A stretch of DNA of 64,000 nucleotides from contig NC_008319.1 in NCBI RefSeq assembly GCF_000014585.1, forward strand, positions 62,001-126,000, in the 5' to 3' direction. The stretch comes from Synechococcus sp. CC9311. Lineage in GTDB: Bacteria; Cyanobacteriota; Cyanobacteriia; PCC-6307; Cyanobiaceae. Shown piece by piece: positions 48,274 through 53,942 of the stretch (positions are counted from its first letter, which is position 1; each line of letters starts with the position of its first letter). Under the pieces are notes generated by a model, which did not search any database, was not told the origin of the DNA, and worked only from the letters and a program-made list of their open reading frames with translations. The translations under genes were made by a program, and so were the position numbers.

Positions 48274-49266
48274 ATGGCCGATCTTTCTGCTTTGGCTCCT
48301 CGTGTGATGTGCCTGGGTGAGGCATTGGTTGATCGACTTGGGCCGCTGGGGGGAGATCCCGTGACGGCAGCTCCTGAATCTTGTGATGATCGTTTGGGCG
48401 GTGCACCTGCGAACGTGGCCTGTGCTCTTGCCCGATTGGGCACTCCTGTCGGTCTGGTTGGTCGACTTGGTGAAGACTCAATTGGTTCTGCCTTTCGTGA
48501 TCTATTTCAGCAGCGGGGTGTGGCTGTTCAAGCCCTTCAACGCGATGTAAGTCACCCAAGTCGGGTGGTGTTGGTTCGCCGCCATGCCAATGGTGAGCGT
48601 GTGTTTCAGGGTTTTGCAGGAGATCACGCCCTGGGGTTTGCCGATCAGATGCTGAATCTTGGCGAATTGGAAGCGGTTTGGCCGATGGTGTCGAAGCAGG
48701 CTCGCTGGTTGCTCGTTGGAACGATTCCATTGGCAACGCCAACTTCTGCTGATTCGCTGCAGTGGTTGTTGGCTCAAGCCCAGGCGGCAAGCCTTGCGCT
48801 TGCTGTAGATGTGAATTGGCGCCCCACGTTTTGGGATCCCGAGGCAGATCCAGCAGCTGGTCCTACCGCTGATGCATTGGCGGTGATCAAGCCGTTGTTG
48901 GAACAGGCCTCCCTGATCAAATTGGCTCGGGAGGAGGCGTTGTGGTTCTTCGGCAGTGATGATCCTGCTGCTGTCGCTAAAGATTTGCCGCAGCAGCCCG
49001 ATGTTGTTGTAACCGATGGAGCCAACCCCATTCGCTGGTTTATCGAGCATGAGGCTGGGAGTATGCCGGTGTTTCAGCCTTCTCAGGTCATCGACACCAC
49101 TGGGGCAGGGGACGCGTTCACTGCGGGTCTATTGCACTGTTGGGATCGTCCCGTGAATGAGCGGCTGTACTTTGCGTCAGCCTGCGGTGCTCTTGTTTGC
49201 AGCGGTGCCGGAGCCATCGATCCACAGCCGCAAGAGCAGGATGTTCTCACCTTCCTGAATCGATGA
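48274..49266 (+). CDS. PfkB-family carbohydrate kinase, fructokinase-like
   Basis: Ribokinase-fold sugar kinase of 330 residues. The first PfkB signature GGAPANVACALARLG is near 38-52 and the second, IDTTGAGDAFTAG with the catalytic Asp, near 272-284. Overall it is closest to fructokinases; the sugar is inferred from family likeness. It is convergent with a second, unlike PfkB kinase after a structured 117-base spacer. Confidence 0.9.
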   Translation: MADLSALAPRVMCLGEALVDRLGPLGGDPVTAAPESCDDRLGGAPANVACALARLGTPVGLVGRLGEDSIGSAFRDLFQQRGVAVQALQRDVSHPSRVVLVRRHANGERVFQGFAGDHALGFADQMLNLGELEAVWPMVSKQARWLLVGTIPLATPTSADSLQWLLAQAQAASLALAVDVNWRPTFWDPEADPAAGPTADALAVIKPLLEQASLIKLAREEALWFFGSDDPAAVAKDLPQQPDVVVTDGANPIRWFIEHEAGSMPVFQPSQVIDTTGAGDAFTAGLLHCWDRPVNERLYFASACGALVCSGAGAIDPQPQEQDVLTFLNR

Positions 49267-49311: not shown

Positions 49312-49360
49312 ACCATCGGATTCTTTTCTGAATAGCTCATTCTGAGCTGATTCCGATGGT
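49312..49360. terminator. Nested inverted repeats between two convergent kinase genes
   Basis: ACCATCGGA (49312-49320) is the reverse complement of TCCGATGGT (49352-49360), and AGCTC (49334-49338) pairs with GAGCT (49344-49348) inside it. Placed between two convergent genes, it probably ends both transcripts or protects their 3' ends. No clear U-tract on either strand. Confidence 0.5.
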
Positions 49361-49383: not shown

Positions 49384-50331
49384 TCAGACCTCGTGGATGT
49401 GAAGGGTGTGATTTCCCATGAAGCGGAGTGCTTCTTCTTTGCTAAACACGCTGGATGTCGCTGCGGTGCTTCGCACGCAGCTTGCACCCATGGCGCTTCC
49501 CCAGCGTACGCAGCCTTTTAGGTCCTCCCCGTTGAGATACCCAGCAATGAACCCTGCGTCAAAGGCGTCCCCGGCGCCCGTCCCGCCGAGAAAGGAGGTG
49601 GAATAAGCATCACTACGAAGGCGCAGTCCATCGGTCACGACATAGGTCCCTTGAGCACCATCCGTAATCACCACCGTGCTAGCTCCGGCATCGCCGAACA
49701 TCTGTGCCTGGTCCCAAGGGTTCTTACGCCCAGTCAAGAGAGCCGCTTCATCACGATTCGGGAGCACCACGTCGGTGAAGGGCAAAACGCGCTGCACCCG
49801 TTCCATGGCAAGAGGGTCTTTGACCTCAATGACATCCAGCACCACAAGAGCACCGTTAGCGCGGGCCTGTTGAAGGCGTTCTTGGGTTTGAACGCTTTCG
49901 AGGGCGTCTAGCAAGAGAAAGCCGCCGATATGAATGACGGCTGCGGATTCGATCAGGCCCTCCGGAATCATGCTGCATTTGAAAAGCCGGTTGGCTCCCA
50001 CCACTGAGATCAAGCGTCGATCACCCCCCTCCACATTGATCACAGCTGATGTTGCGGTCGTGGCCTGGGAGCAGCGGCTTACCCCAGTGGTTTGAACTCC
50101 AGCTTCCTCCAGGGTTCGCAGAAGAAAGTCGCCGAATGGATCTTCTCCAATGCACCCCCCTAAACACACATCTACGCCCAACTTGGCCAAGTCGTAAGCG
50201 GTATTGGCAGCACAGCCCCCTAAGCAAAGTTCCATTAGGGAGGTCTCTACGATTTGACCGGCGTTTGGCAAGGCCGGCACTGGGTCGCAGACCAGATCAG
50301 CGCAGAGAAGACCAAGGCATAAACAATCCAA
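49384..50331 (-). CDS. PfkB-family kinase beside a glutamine-synthetase-like gene
   Basis: 315-residue ribokinase-fold kinase with CLGGCAANTAYDLAKLG near 36-52 and GGTGAGDAFDAGF near 250-262. Not closely alike to the kinase at 48274. Its start codon directly follows the stop of the glutamine-synthetase-like gene with no spacer, so the two are cotranscribed and probably share a pathway. Sugar or nucleoside-like substrate unknown. Confidence 0.87.
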   Translation of the reverse strand: MDCLCLGLLCADLVCDPVPALPNAGQIVETSLMELCLGGCAANTAYDLAKLGVDVCLGGCIGEDPFGDFLLRTLEEAGVQTTGVSRCSQATTATSAVINVEGGDRRLISVVGANRLFKCSMIPEGLIESAAVIHIGGFLLLDALESVQTQERLQQARANGALVVLDVIEVKDPLAMERVQRVLPFTDVVLPNRDEAALLTGRKNPWDQAQMFGDAGASTVVITDGAQGTYVVTDGLRLRSDAYSTSFLGGTGAGDAFDAGFIAGYLNGEDLKGCVRWGSAMGASCVRSTAATSSVFSKEEALRFMGNHTLHIHEV

Positions 50332-51687
50332 CTACACCAGTCCTCCCACGATCGGCCACCAGCAACTGTCACTCACTTGTTGCTCTTCCGATTTTGTTTC
50401 TACCCGGTGGATTTCAGCGGCAAGGCTGTCTAAGAGTGATCCGTGCAACAGCGGGCCCATGGCCTCAAGAAGGACAGCGTCGCGCTCCAGCGCTATTCGT
50501 GCCTCAACAAGACTGGCTGGAAGCCTGCAAACGCTGTGGTCGTTAACGAGTGCCGGATCGCCGATCTGCTCTGGTGGAAGGATGCGTTTATGTCTCATGG
50601 CATCCAGCACTTGGGCCTGTAGTGCACCGAGTAACAGGTAGGGATTTGCAGTGGGATCGACTGCCTTGATCTCCAGGTGGGCCGCACTTTGATCTGACGC
50701 AGTGGGGATGAACCGAACGGCTGCCTCACGGTTCTCCATCCCCCAGACCTGGAAGGGCGCAGACCAGCTGCTGGGCACTAGGCGTAGATAAGACACGGGT
50801 GATGGGCTAGCCAGGGCTACCAGTCCAGGTAGCTGTTCGAGCACTCCTGCGATCAGGGCTTCGCCCTCAGGACGCAGCCCATAGGGCCCGGAACCTTCCT
50901 GTAGCAAGGGGCCTTGCGAATCTCGGACACTGAAGTGCAGATGGCCGCCATTCCCAACCCAGTCGAGCCTGGGTTTGGCACTGAAGCTGCTGAACCAGCC
51001 GAAGCGGCGTGTCACACGTTGAATCACCAATCGGGCACGAATCAGTTGGTCCGCCGCTTGAAGGGGGGCTTGGGCTGCGAAGGAGAGTTCGAACTGTGAG
51101 GGGCCATATTCGGGATGAAATTGGAGCCAGTCCACATCGGCTGCATCCAATGCCTTGAGGAGTGCCGAGGCGTAATCGAGGCCCTCGATCAAGCGGTCCG
51201 CGCCATAAGGGCCACCAGCGATCACTGCCTTTGGGGAGCCATCGTTGTCTGGGGTGATGACGACCCACTCCAGTTCAAATCCAGCAGTGAGGGAAAGGCC
51301 TTTTCGATGCAATGTTTCTCCCATTCGGCGGCAGAAGTGGCGCTGATCTGCCTCGTAGGCACCAGTGCTGTTGCGGTTCCATCGTTCGCCTGCGGCCCAG
51401 GCCCAGCCTTGATCGGGTTCCAGCATCGCCAGTGATGATGGATCAGCCTTGAGGCGCAGATCCCCATCCGGTCGAGTGAGGCGATGTGCCGGATCGATGA
51501 TTCCGTCCGAGCGGAAGGCGTCGGAGATCGGCGAGAAGCCAACGCCAACGTCGATGGCGAGTTGCCAACGGCGCAATGGAACAACCTTGACGAGCGACTC
51601 GCCCGCGTGGTTGTCCCAGGTGATAGCGATCTGACGAACACCCCTGGCGCTTAACGCTTCGAGAGAGGTGTCATGCTCCGTGCTCAT
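50332..51687 (-). CDS. Glutamine-synthetase-family ligase
   Basis: 451-residue member of the glutamine synthetase superfamily, not the GlnA of nitrogen assimilation. The fold motifs remain: a GFELEW metal-ligand strand, the HPEYGPSQFEL segment that replaces the HEVA-type motif, NGGHLHFS for ATP and metal binding, and EIKAVDPTANPYL near the end. Related proteins form gamma-glutamyl amides with amines such as putrescine or ethanolamine. It is upstream of a PfkB kinase with no gap and divergent from a sodium:solute symporter. Substrate is inferred only by context. Confidence 0.87.
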   Translation of the reverse strand: MSTEHDTSLEALSARGVRQIAITWDNHAGESLVKVVPLRRWQLAIDVGVGFSPISDAFRSDGIIDPAHRLTRPDGDLRLKADPSSLAMLEPDQGWAWAAGERWNRNSTGAYEADQRHFCRRMGETLHRKGLSLTAGFELEWVVITPDNDGSPKAVIAGGPYGADRLIEGLDYASALLKALDAADVDWLQFHPEYGPSQFELSFAAQAPLQAADQLIRARLVIQRVTRRFGWFSSFSAKPRLDWVGNGGHLHFSVRDSQGPLLQEGSGPYGLRPEGEALIAGVLEQLPGLVALASPSPVSYLRLVPSSWSAPFQVWGMENREAAVRFIPTASDQSAAHLEIKAVDPTANPYLLLGALQAQVLDAMRHKRILPPEQIGDPALVNDHSVCRLPASLVEARIALERDAVLLEAMGPLLHGSLLDSLAAEIHRVETKSEEQQVSDSCWWPIVGGLV

Positions 51688-51720
51688 GGCTTGGCGTCCA
51701 GTGTTTCAAGGATGAAGCCT

Positions 51721-51738
51721 GCAGCGTTGAGACGCTGC
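51721..51738. promoter_or_regulatory. Hairpin or operator in the ligase/symporter divergent spacer
   Basis: GCAGCGT (51721-51727) and ACGCTGC (51732-51738) are perfect inverted repeats with a TGAG loop, in the 128 bases between two divergent operons. It may bind a shared regulator or fold in the leader. Confidence 0.4.
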
Positions 51739-51815
51739 GCTCTAGTTGCCTTGGTGTGGGGTCTTGGGCTGAAAAAGTGATTGATCAGAATGAAGGTTGA
51801 GAAGGAGTGCGATTC

Positions 51816-52001
51816 ATGGTTGTCATGCCAAGCCGCTTGCCATGGTTGGCCTTGCTCGCTGCTGTTGCTTTGGCATTAGTGGTGCATTTTCAGGCTGCAT
51901 CGGCCCTGCCGTTTTGGGCTGGCCTGCCTGCCTGGGTGTTGATGTTCATCGTCCTTCAGGCGGCACTCACCCTGATCGCTGCTTGGATCGCCCGCCCATG
52001 A
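51816..52001 (+). CDS. 61-residue two-helix membrane protein, partner of the symporter
   Basis: Two hydrophobic helices (about 8-24 and 37-58) separated by a short loop with LPFWAGLP, ending in Arg-Pro. A strong ribosome-binding site GAAGGAG at 51801-51807 points to the ATG at 51816; a GTG at 51807 overlaps that site and is less likely. Its stop overlaps the ATG of the symporter gene (ATGA), so translation is coupled. Small proteins of this shape (DUF3311 and YhdT types) sit before sodium:solute symporters in other bacteria. Confidence 0.75.
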   Translation: MVVMPSRLPWLALLAAVALALVVHFQAASALPFWAGLPAWVLMFIVLQAALTLIAAWIARP

Positions 52002-53455
52002 CCACCACCCTGATTTCTGCGCTCATCTCTCTTGTTGTCTATCTGCTGGCTTTGCTCTGGCTAGGTGCTCAAAGTCTTGGGGGACAAACCAACAGCGCCG
52101 ACTCCTATTTTTTGGCCGATCGCCGCCTGCGTGCCGGCGTGTTGTTTTTCACGCTGATCGCGACCAACTTCAGTGCTTTTTTCTTTCTTGGCTTTGCCGG
52201 GGCGGGATATCGAATCGGGATTGCCTATTACCCAATGATGGCTTTTGGAACAGGATTAGCTGCTCTCAGCTTCGGCAGCCTTGGCTGTCGGGTGAGGAGA
52301 CTCAGCGCTCAACATGGCCTCATCACTCCTTCTGAATTGATCGGCCATCTCCTGCCTGGAGAAGGGGTGCGCTTATTGGTGCTTGCAGTAATGGTGCTGT
52401 TCACCCTTCCTTATTTGGCTCTGCAGCCATTGGGTGCGGGGTATTTGCTGGAAAGTCTCACTGGAGGCGTCGTTCCTTTTGAAGTGGGAGCAGTACTGCT
52501 CACGGTTGTGATTGTGCTCTATGTCGTTGGCGGTGGTATGCGAGCTGTGGCCCGCACCGATGTGCTTCAAGGAGTGCTGATGTTTTTGCTAATGCTGATG
52601 GCTTTTGTGGCTGTTGCCGTAGGTGTGGGTGGAGTTCAAACCGCAAATCGCACGCTTTTGCAACAGCTTCCTGATCTCTTTAGCGGGGCTGGACGCAATG
52701 ATTTTTTTACGCCTCGAATGATGGCGAGCTATTTGCTCCTTTGGCCGTTATGTCTTCCGATGTTCCCGCAGATGCTGATGCGTTTTTTCGCTGCTGGGGA
52801 TGACCGCTCGCTGAAACAGTCGATGGTGCTTTATCCCGTCGTGGCGGGAGTGCTGTTTATTTGTCCAGTGATGATCGGGATGTGGGGGCATCTGGCCTTC
52901 CCCGATCTGGTGGGTCGCGCATCCGATCAGATCATGCCGTTGATGCTGGGGCGTTACAGCCCGGAGTGGCTGACAGGAATCGTGATGGTGGGGGCTTTGG
53001 CTGCGTTTATGTCCACTTTGGATTCGCAATTGTTGGCCCTGTCTTCCATGTTGACCCGCGACTTATATAAGAGGTATTGGCGCCCACAAGCATCTTTGCC
53101 GGAGCAAGTGCGTGTCGGGCAGCTGGTGGTGATTGCACTTGCTGTCTCTGGTCTGGTCATTGCGCTTCGTCCGCCGGAGGCGATTTTGTCGCTGGCAACC
53201 CATGCGTTTTCGGGTCTCGCTTTGTTGTTCCCGATGCTGGTGGGGGCGGTTTATGGCCTGCGATGGTCCGTTATTGGCGCCATTTTGTCGGTCATCGGGG
53301 GAGAAGCCGTTCTGCTGGGGTTTGCAACCGGCGTGATTCCAGAGGTGTTCCAGGGGGGCTGTTTGCCTTTGATTCCAGCACTGGTGGTCGCATGCTCGAT
53401 TTTGGTTGTGGATCAGGTCATCTCTCGCTGGTCGTCGTCTTTCTTGCAGGCATGA
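51998..53455 (+). CDS. Sodium:solute symporter family transporter
   Basis: 485 residues from the ATG at 51998, with about 13 hydrophobic helices. The family signatures are visible: a GGQTNSADSYFLADRRL segment after helix 1, FSAFFFLGFAGAGYR, and MSTLDSQLLALSSMLTRD in the sodium-site helix near residue 340-355. Related carriers bring in pantothenate, proline, sugars or carboxylates; the solute is unknown. It is translated from the stop of the 61-residue gene and overlaps the end of tsaE by 38 bases on the opposite strand. Confidence 0.9.
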   Translation: MTTTLISALISLVVYLLALLWLGAQSLGGQTNSADSYFLADRRLRAGVLFFTLIATNFSAFFFLGFAGAGYRIGIAYYPMMAFGTGLAALSFGSLGCRVRRLSAQHGLITPSELIGHLLPGEGVRLLVLAVMVLFTLPYLALQPLGAGYLLESLTGGVVPFEVGAVLLTVVIVLYVVGGGMRAVARTDVLQGVLMFLLMLMAFVAVAVGVGGVQTANRTLLQQLPDLFSGAGRNDFFTPRMMASYLLLWPLCLPMFPQMLMRFFAAGDDRSLKQSMVLYPVVAGVLFICPVMIGMWGHLAFPDLVGRASDQIMPLMLGRYSPEWLTGIVMVGALAAFMSTLDSQLLALSSMLTRDLYKRYWRPQASLPEQVRVGQLVVIALAVSGLVIALRPPEAILSLATHAFSGLALLFPMLVGAVYGLRWSVIGAILSVIGGEAVLLGFATGVIPEVFQGGCLPLIPALVVACSILVVDQVISRWSSSFLQA

Positions 53456-53942
53456 CGTTCGGACACTGCAGCGAGATGGTGCGTCCTCCGCCAGGGGCGT
53501 AATTGAGATCTAAAAACCAGGCGTCAGGTAGAGAAAGGCTGAGCCTTTCAGGCCACTCCACCACGAGCAGGGCTCCCATCGCAGAGGCTTCTTCTTCTTC
53601 TTGAAGGAAGAGGTCGTTGGCTGCGAAGGCTTGCTCGAGGCGGTACAGGTCGAGATGGATCAGTGGTGGGGTGCCTTCGGGGTAGTGCTGAGCAAGTGCA
53701 AAGGTTGGGCTGGTGATCGGTTCTTGGATTCCTAGAGCGTCGGCTAGCCCCTGCACGAGAGAGGTTTTGCCTGCTCCGAGTGGTCCCTGTAGGAGCAAGA
53801 TGTCGTGCGGTTTGAGGCGCGCTGCCAACATCCGGCCAAGGTCTTTTGTGGCCTCAAGATCGTCAAGGATCCTTGTCTCATCTGTAGATTGGCGGATAAG
53901 GGAGCCCGAAGCCTCGGCGTCTCCGAAGTATTTATCGTTCAC
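53418..53942 (-). CDS. tsaE: tRNA threonylcarbamoyladenosine synthesis protein TsaE
   Basis: ATPase that cycles the TsaB-TsaD complex making t6A37 in tRNA. The P-loop GPLGAGKTS is at 53-61, followed by [25 protein letters not shown], the family's switch region. 174 residues; the first 28 residues are extra. Its 3' end overlaps the symporter gene by 38 bases. Divergent from ahcY. Confidence 0.93.

Follow-up and report, generated by a model that had tools for sequence, protein, structure and literature searches.

Do four tightly packed genes of the cyanobacterium Synechococcus sp. CC9311 form a pathway that imports, glutamylates and phosphorylates a single compound, or have they come together by chance? 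The genes lie in a 64,000-nucleotide stretch (the window: positions 62001-126000 of a 2.6-Mb genome in a single contig; coordinates below are counted from its first letter). On the reverse strand, a glutamine-synthetase-like ligase of 451 residues, a probable glutamyl-organic-amine synthetase (GSL; 50332-51687, PF00120), is followed by a PfkB/ribokinase-type sugar kinase of 315 residues (PFKB2; 49384-50331, PF00294). Divergent from this pair, on the forward strand, a hydrophobic protein of 61 residues, possibly a divergent DUF997 (YhdT-like) symporter partner (SMALL; 51816-52001), precedes a PanF-like sodium:solute symporter of 485 residues (SSS; 51998-53455, PF00474). A first-pass annotation of the sequence had proposed the single pathway. 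After comparing genomes, we lean towards another reading, in which the four genes would be a chance grouping at a variable site, with GSL, SMALL and SSS as a plausible unit and PFKB2 as an unrelated kinase.

The layout that inspired the proposal is as it was first described. The stop codon of GSL (TAG, 50332-50334) directly abuts the start of PFKB2 (TTG, 50331), and the GSL-PFKB2 pair diverges from the symporter and its coupled small protein, whose coordinates were given correctly. This TTG is very probably the true start of PFKB2, because relatives begin at the homologous codon with ATG (two) or GTG (two) in the four whose start region was read. A GGAGG lies inside the end of GSL, finishing 10 nt upstream of the PFKB2 start. 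SMALL begins at an ATG (51816) and shares 4 nt with the start of SSS (51998); its reading frame is open in eight aligned sequences, the window's included, and its product is 61-95% identical to those of seven relatives.

The ligase and the kinase part company once other genomes are considered. Among 201 genomes of the family, 38 contain GSL (E 1e-40 or better), three PFKB2 and five SSS (E 1e-50 or better for each of these two); the window's genome alone combines them all. A search of 386 phylum genomes gave GSL at E 1e-50 or better in eight, six from the same family and two distant, with 33-35% identity. We then counted partners within 1.5 kb of GSL in 45 genomes, with 37 loci from the family and 8 from the genus, some of them having short flanks (240 bases on one side in G051 and 1999 in G187; G and L numbers are our handles for genomes and loci). 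An isochorismatase-like amidase accompanies GSL in 26 genomes, moaA in 10, SMALL-SSS in 5, and an MHS permease and PFKB2 in 1 each. A conserved GSL-PFKB2 operon is thus rejected, and the four genes turn out to be scattered in most relatives, the pattern that the first-pass annotation had itself named as speaking against its model.

The same holds closer to home. The four genes fill a variable site between a fructokinase-like PfkB gene, which forms its left border outside the module (48274-49266, forward strand, PF00294), and tsaE/ahcY; tsaE, the right border (53418-53942, reverse strand), is placed by gene order in 28 genomes. The names tsaE, ahcY, ndk, speA, thiO and transglutaminase-like were given by eye, with no family search. 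We tabulated the site in 28 of 31 genomes of the genus, the fructokinase not being found in three incomplete ones; neighbours were picked with a home-made gene caller and then counted by tblastn. Nine states are present. The site is empty in 13 genomes, holds PFKB2 alone in two, a XylB-like kinase with PFKB2 in three, and the same two genes with SMALL-SSS, at a contig end, in one. PFKB2 with a truncated SMALL and SSS is found once, SMALL-SSS alone three times and GSL-SMALL-SSS once. A PRTase-like gene with GSL, SMALL and SSS occupies the site in three genomes (in one of them GSL is truncated and SMALL carries a stop), and PFKB2, GSL, SMALL and SSS stand together in one, the window's. Across the 31 genomes, GSL occurs in 10, SSS in 10 with strong matches and in one with a weak match, and PFKB2 in eight, seven of which keep PFKB2 away from any GSL. 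SMALL-SSS is present in 5/5 genomes that carry GSL at the site. Of the proposed uptake pathway, then, the link between the ligase and the symporter with its small partner stands, and the phosphorylation step by the PfkB kinase is not supported.

Two features of the site are recorded here in their own right. Between the convergent fructokinase and PFKB2 genes we saw by eye an inverted repeat (49313-49359; CCATCGGA...TCCGATGG, with an inner AGCTCA/TGAGCT stem), which is perhaps a two-way terminator. Downstream of GSL in three site genomes (L033, L034, L104) lies a gene for a 323-aa PRTase-CE protein (PF24390, E 3e-9), a domain whose name presumably points to bacterial conflict systems.

How PFKB2 came to stand behind GSL is suggested by the history of the site. 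On a tree of five neighbour genes, the window's genome and seven other SSS-bearing genomes form one clade (support 100/100). Within it SMALL-SSS occurs in 8/8, GSL in 5/8 and PFKB2 in the window's genome only; the three GSL absences form a single subclade (G123, G219 and G034; 90/93). The sister genome, G101, has no PFKB2; in its place stands a PRTase-like gene, together with some 8 kb of inserted DNA. DNA identity between the window and G101 is 94-96% from the spacer through dedA, 79% in GSL, 80% in the fructokinase and 92% in mutY. The drop from 94% to 79% falls at the GSL start, as after recombination. We favour an exchange of the fructokinase-GSL stretch, in the window's genome or in G101, that would have left PFKB2 beside GSL.

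PFKB2 itself belongs to a sugar kinase family, matching PF00294 over nearly its full length (179 bits, well above the cut-off). It scores below the cut-offs of the IolC, ribokinase and fructokinase equivalogs, the best score being that of IolC (136 of 300 bits) and that of ribokinase 125 of 300. In four of the eight PFKB2 genomes (L098-L101), a XylB-type xylulokinase lies convergent with PFKB2, between it and the fructokinase; the copy that was scored, in L100, reaches 541 bits against a cut-off of 380. This neighbour hints at a pentose or polyol as the PFKB2 substrate. Two plasmid relatives of PFKB2 whose neighbourhoods were read both sit in sugar ABC-transporter operons. PFKB2 is probably outside the ligase and importer unit.

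We next consider what the ligase might do. GSL matches PF00120 with 198 bits (cut-off 24) and so has the glutamine synthetase catalytic domain that is one criterion for glutamyl-organic-amine synthetases (GoaS). It falls far short of the model for GlnA, type I glutamine synthetase (TIGR00653, 132.7 bits where 429 are needed), and the genome has a separate glutamine synthetase gene, which we read as its own GlnA. Nor does it reach the level of the gamma-glutamylputrescine synthetase PuuA: GGputSyn is its nearest NCBIfam, with 208 bits against an equivalog cut-off of 650. The closest solved structure in the PDB is 4hpp. One paper identifies this structure as PA5508 and describes the enzyme as favouring bulky amines, such as catecholamines, over linear polyamines (PMC6478659). 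A second paper places PA5508 on a branch adjacent to the glutamyl-organic-amine synthetases, which have lost ammonia-site residues, among them a flap residue numbered Glu357 (PMC11335346).

GSL, too, lacks the flap glutamate of the genome's own GlnA. In an ungapped alignment its SWSAP stands opposite GFEAP of the genome's own GlnA, the GlnA Glu falling on an invariant Trp308, and no Glu occurs at residues 306-309 in 32/32 aligned orthologues. The Arg of the GlnA LEFR motif is Lys in all 32, with the Glu of LEFR retained; relative to the own GlnA, the other main glutamine synthetase motifs are also kept. The column opposite the catalytic Asp50' of GlnA, a residue that GoaS enzymes have lost, is Asp, Thr or Gly among orthologues and Asp in the window, with an unsure alignment at this place. 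Near the place of the extra N-terminal loop by which GoaS enzymes widen their amine pocket, GSL has a 9-residue insertion relative to GlnA. The 32-row alignment omits 13 of the 45 GSL genomes: G115, with an internal stop; G204, G143, G148, G113 and G194, with partial genes; and G051, G069, G124, G142, G103, G032 and G187. A structure model built from three sequences has a mean predicted local distance difference test score of 39.9, too poor for reading the pocket. Among the best 40 of 628 plasmid relatives, identity to GSL is at most 39%, the best being a record with no annotated features in that stretch. Taken together, these features make GSL look like a ligase that adds glutamate to an amine, in line with the glutamylation first proposed for it.

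The two forward-strand genes resemble a symporter and its accessory protein. SSS belongs to the sodium:solute symporter family (PF00474, 155 bits over residues 37-435, well above the cut-off); its best family model, TIGR02119 for the sodium/pantothenate symporter PanF, gives 185 bits against a cut-off of 328. Among solved structures a sodium/glucose cotransporter comes closest and a high-affinity choline transporter second; the neighbours of a haloarchaeal relative were uninformative. DUF997 (PF06196) is matched in 4/8 SMALL members (best E 0.0035), the window's copy scoring 9.6 bits against a cut-off of 26.3; the same scan gave competing weak matches to Wzy_C in 3/8 (best 0.39) and to MreD in 1/8 (0.047).

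The spacer shared by the two divergent pairs (51688-51815, 128 bases between gene starts) holds a hairpin, GCAGCGT-TGAG-ACGCTGC, with seven perfect pairs (51721-51738). The first-pass annotation was right that it is there, and a perfect stem as long, with a loop of 3-8, arises in 2.45% of 2000 mononucleotide shuffles of the spacer. It is not conserved. GSL-SMALL spacers measure 128-178 bp in the five GSL-symporter genomes, and the other four contain no perfect stem of at least 6 pairs with a loop of 3-8, all of them folding into other stems. We therefore rejected the hairpin, found in 1/5 spacers, as a shared regulatory element, and regard it as weak evidence for anything. What is kept in all five is a 10-bp motif, TGATCAGAAT (51782-51791, forward strand), which could be the -10 region of the symporter genes. 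The 45 genomes gave no NtcA-like site (GTA-N8-TAC) in the 300 bp that precede the GSL match.

These observations suggest how the unit might work. SSS and its small partner would import an organic solute with sodium, and GSL, expressed from the shared divergent spacer, would spend ATP on linking glutamate through its gamma-carboxyl to an amine, which would probably be the imported solute or be derived from it. Glutamylation would trap the amine, render it harmless or make its nitrogen available to metabolism. In this lineage PFKB2 would stand behind GSL by chance, probably as a result of recombination, and co-transcription may be all that connects the two. Uptake finds its best argument in the pairing of two unrelated transporters, SSS and an MHS permease, with the same GSL branch. 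In L089, from a metagenome-assembled genome, the stop codon of an intact GSL and the start codon of an MHS-type MFS permease overlap; G115 has a permease with the same first residues, which starts no more than 6 bp from the GSL match. On a GSL tree of 33 rows, from which the damaged G204 and G115 were left out, the four SSS-linked rows form one branch (Shimodaira-Hasegawa approximate likelihood-ratio test 99) and the MHS-linked row is its sister (100).

Several points weigh against this reading. Neither tested transporter stands beside GSL in 39/45 GSL genomes, and GSL is absent from the site in 5/10 genus genomes with SSS. In L089 GSL may have a partner other than the MHS gene, because an ABC-permease-like gene, named by eye, lies 60 bp upstream of GSL. 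In three of the GSL-free genomes, the stop codon of the fructokinase overlaps the start codon of SMALL-SSS, an order that would suit a sugar as the SSS solute. A search of the window's genome for a PuuD-like hydrolase (PF07722) gave six partial matches of at most 34.6 bits, all above the low cut-off of 20.5; we provisionally take them as other amidotransferases, which would leave no clear candidate for the next step of an amine pathway. In G204, SSS is kept beside a GSL that has lost its N-terminus (L104) and a SMALL with an internal stop. GSL is also broken in G115 (L006/L035), by an internal stop, and because of these lesions in the two genomes we conclude that the module is being lost in places. 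As to PFKB2, it could instead be old at the site and lost from the other seven clade members, because its identity between the two clades (58-62%) is much like that of the fructokinase.

What else could explain the locus? The original model, a dedicated four-gene pathway for the import, gamma-glutamylation and phosphorylation of one compound, draws on the zero-spacer junction and the GGAGG in the end of GSL, which suggest translational coupling in the window's genome. We consider it very improbable: GSL and PFKB2 pair in 1/45 GSL genomes, PFKB2 elsewhere at the site is alone (2/28) or beside the XylB-type kinase (4/28), the sister genome lacks it and shows the identity break at the GSL start, and its plasmid relatives point to sugar operons. 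A tie between GSL and SSS with its small partner is plausible, and better supported than that pathway. Less easily dismissed, if still unlikely in our judgement, is that SSS-SMALL serves a sugar, with the neighbouring fructokinase, or a PanF-like pantothenate uptake, and that its pairing with GSL is a shared address only. The apparent operon in G123, G219 and G034, where fructokinase and SMALL overlap in a TAATG at stop and start, would fit, as would PanF as the best family, the sodium/glucose cotransporter as the best solved relative and the SSS genomes with no GSL at the site. Yet GSL already stands with SSS in G210, the basal member of the clade, and the genomes without GSL, three in one subclade, fit a single loss that brought SSS beside the fructokinase. 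PanF and PutP scores fall far below their cut-offs, and the choline transporter is the second solved relative.

The remaining alternative, which we hold at a similarly low probability, is nitrogen scavenging, in which the core would be GSL with the isochorismatase-like amidase, and the window's branch would have swapped the amidase for a transporter, taking its amine from the surroundings. The amidase is the commonest tested partner of GSL, divergent from it in 26/26 cases at 23-354 bp; the family model closest to it, below cut-off, is that of biuret hydrolase, which is also among its nearest structures in the PDB. On a midpoint-rooted tree, the SSS- and MHS-linked GSLs are sister branches among amidase-linked rows. 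The moaA neighbour would also agree, but may be a mere address, and the order of events depends on the root of the tree. In the window's genus the amidase is missing except for weak partial matches of 30-34% in 5/31 genomes; the sole PF00857 match of the window's genome (position 984784) is distant from the partner amidase. Moreover, five genus genomes carry a GSL (57-58% identical) elsewhere, beside an ndk-like gene (L109-L113), and neither SSS nor PFKB2 nor the amidase lies within 4 kb of it.

Some further neighbours were noted at these loci. A speA-like arginine decarboxylase, named by eye, adjoins the ndk-like gene in four of the five ndk-linked loci, and the PF00857 gene at 984784 adjoins what by eye is a sensor-kinase-like gene. 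An FdhF-like oxidoreductase lies within 4 kb of GSL in 11 genomes (amidase-linked loci L037-L068, from other genera of the family). In 6/45 genomes (L052, L057, L058, L059, L061, L064) the next gene downstream of GSL is the transglutaminase-like one, for which no NCBIfam match was found.

Speculatively, the scavenging idea could be widened to an undescribed organic-nitrogen pathway of picocyanobacteria built on a glutamyl-amine ligase. In most genomes a divergent, biuret-hydrolase-like amidase would release the amine within the cell; one branch would have exchanged the amidase for SSS and its small partner or for the MHS permease, and the window would hold the symporter form. We regard this as a tentative proposal, with the odds against it. 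Our literature searches, from whose coverage subscription journals were mostly absent, returned no paper describing this gene set in its title or the start of its abstract. Which dissolved organic nitrogen compounds marine picocyanobacteria can take up is an open question, and a glutamyl-amine ligase partnered by an amidase or by alternating transporters would offer a concrete enzyme and a few assays. Returning to the reading that we favour, the site illustrates how two unrelated genes, GSL and PFKB2, can easily pass for a compact operon in one genome, an impression that comparison with others dispels.

Three known systems bear comparison with the locus. GSL resembles the GoaS enzymes (NpaA1, AtdA1 and others, with PA5508 and GlnA3 on an adjacent branch) in its glutamine synthetase fold family, its catalytic motifs, its missing flap Glu and the nearness of PA5508 among solved structures; it differs in the Lys that replaces the LEFR Arg and in its partners, an amidase or a transporter. 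PFKB2 is like the PfkB sugar kinases IolC and ribokinase in its near full-length PF00294 domain, with IolC its best equivalog, but lies under every listed equivalog cut-off and, in four relatives, stands beside a XylB-type kinase. The pair PanF-YhdT, a sodium/pantothenate symporter with a DUF997 partner, is resembled by an SSS-family symporter whose start overlaps the gene of a small hydrophobic protein that weakly matches DUF997; here, in contrast, both the PanF and the DUF997 scores stay below their cut-offs, and nothing points to pantothenate as the substrate.

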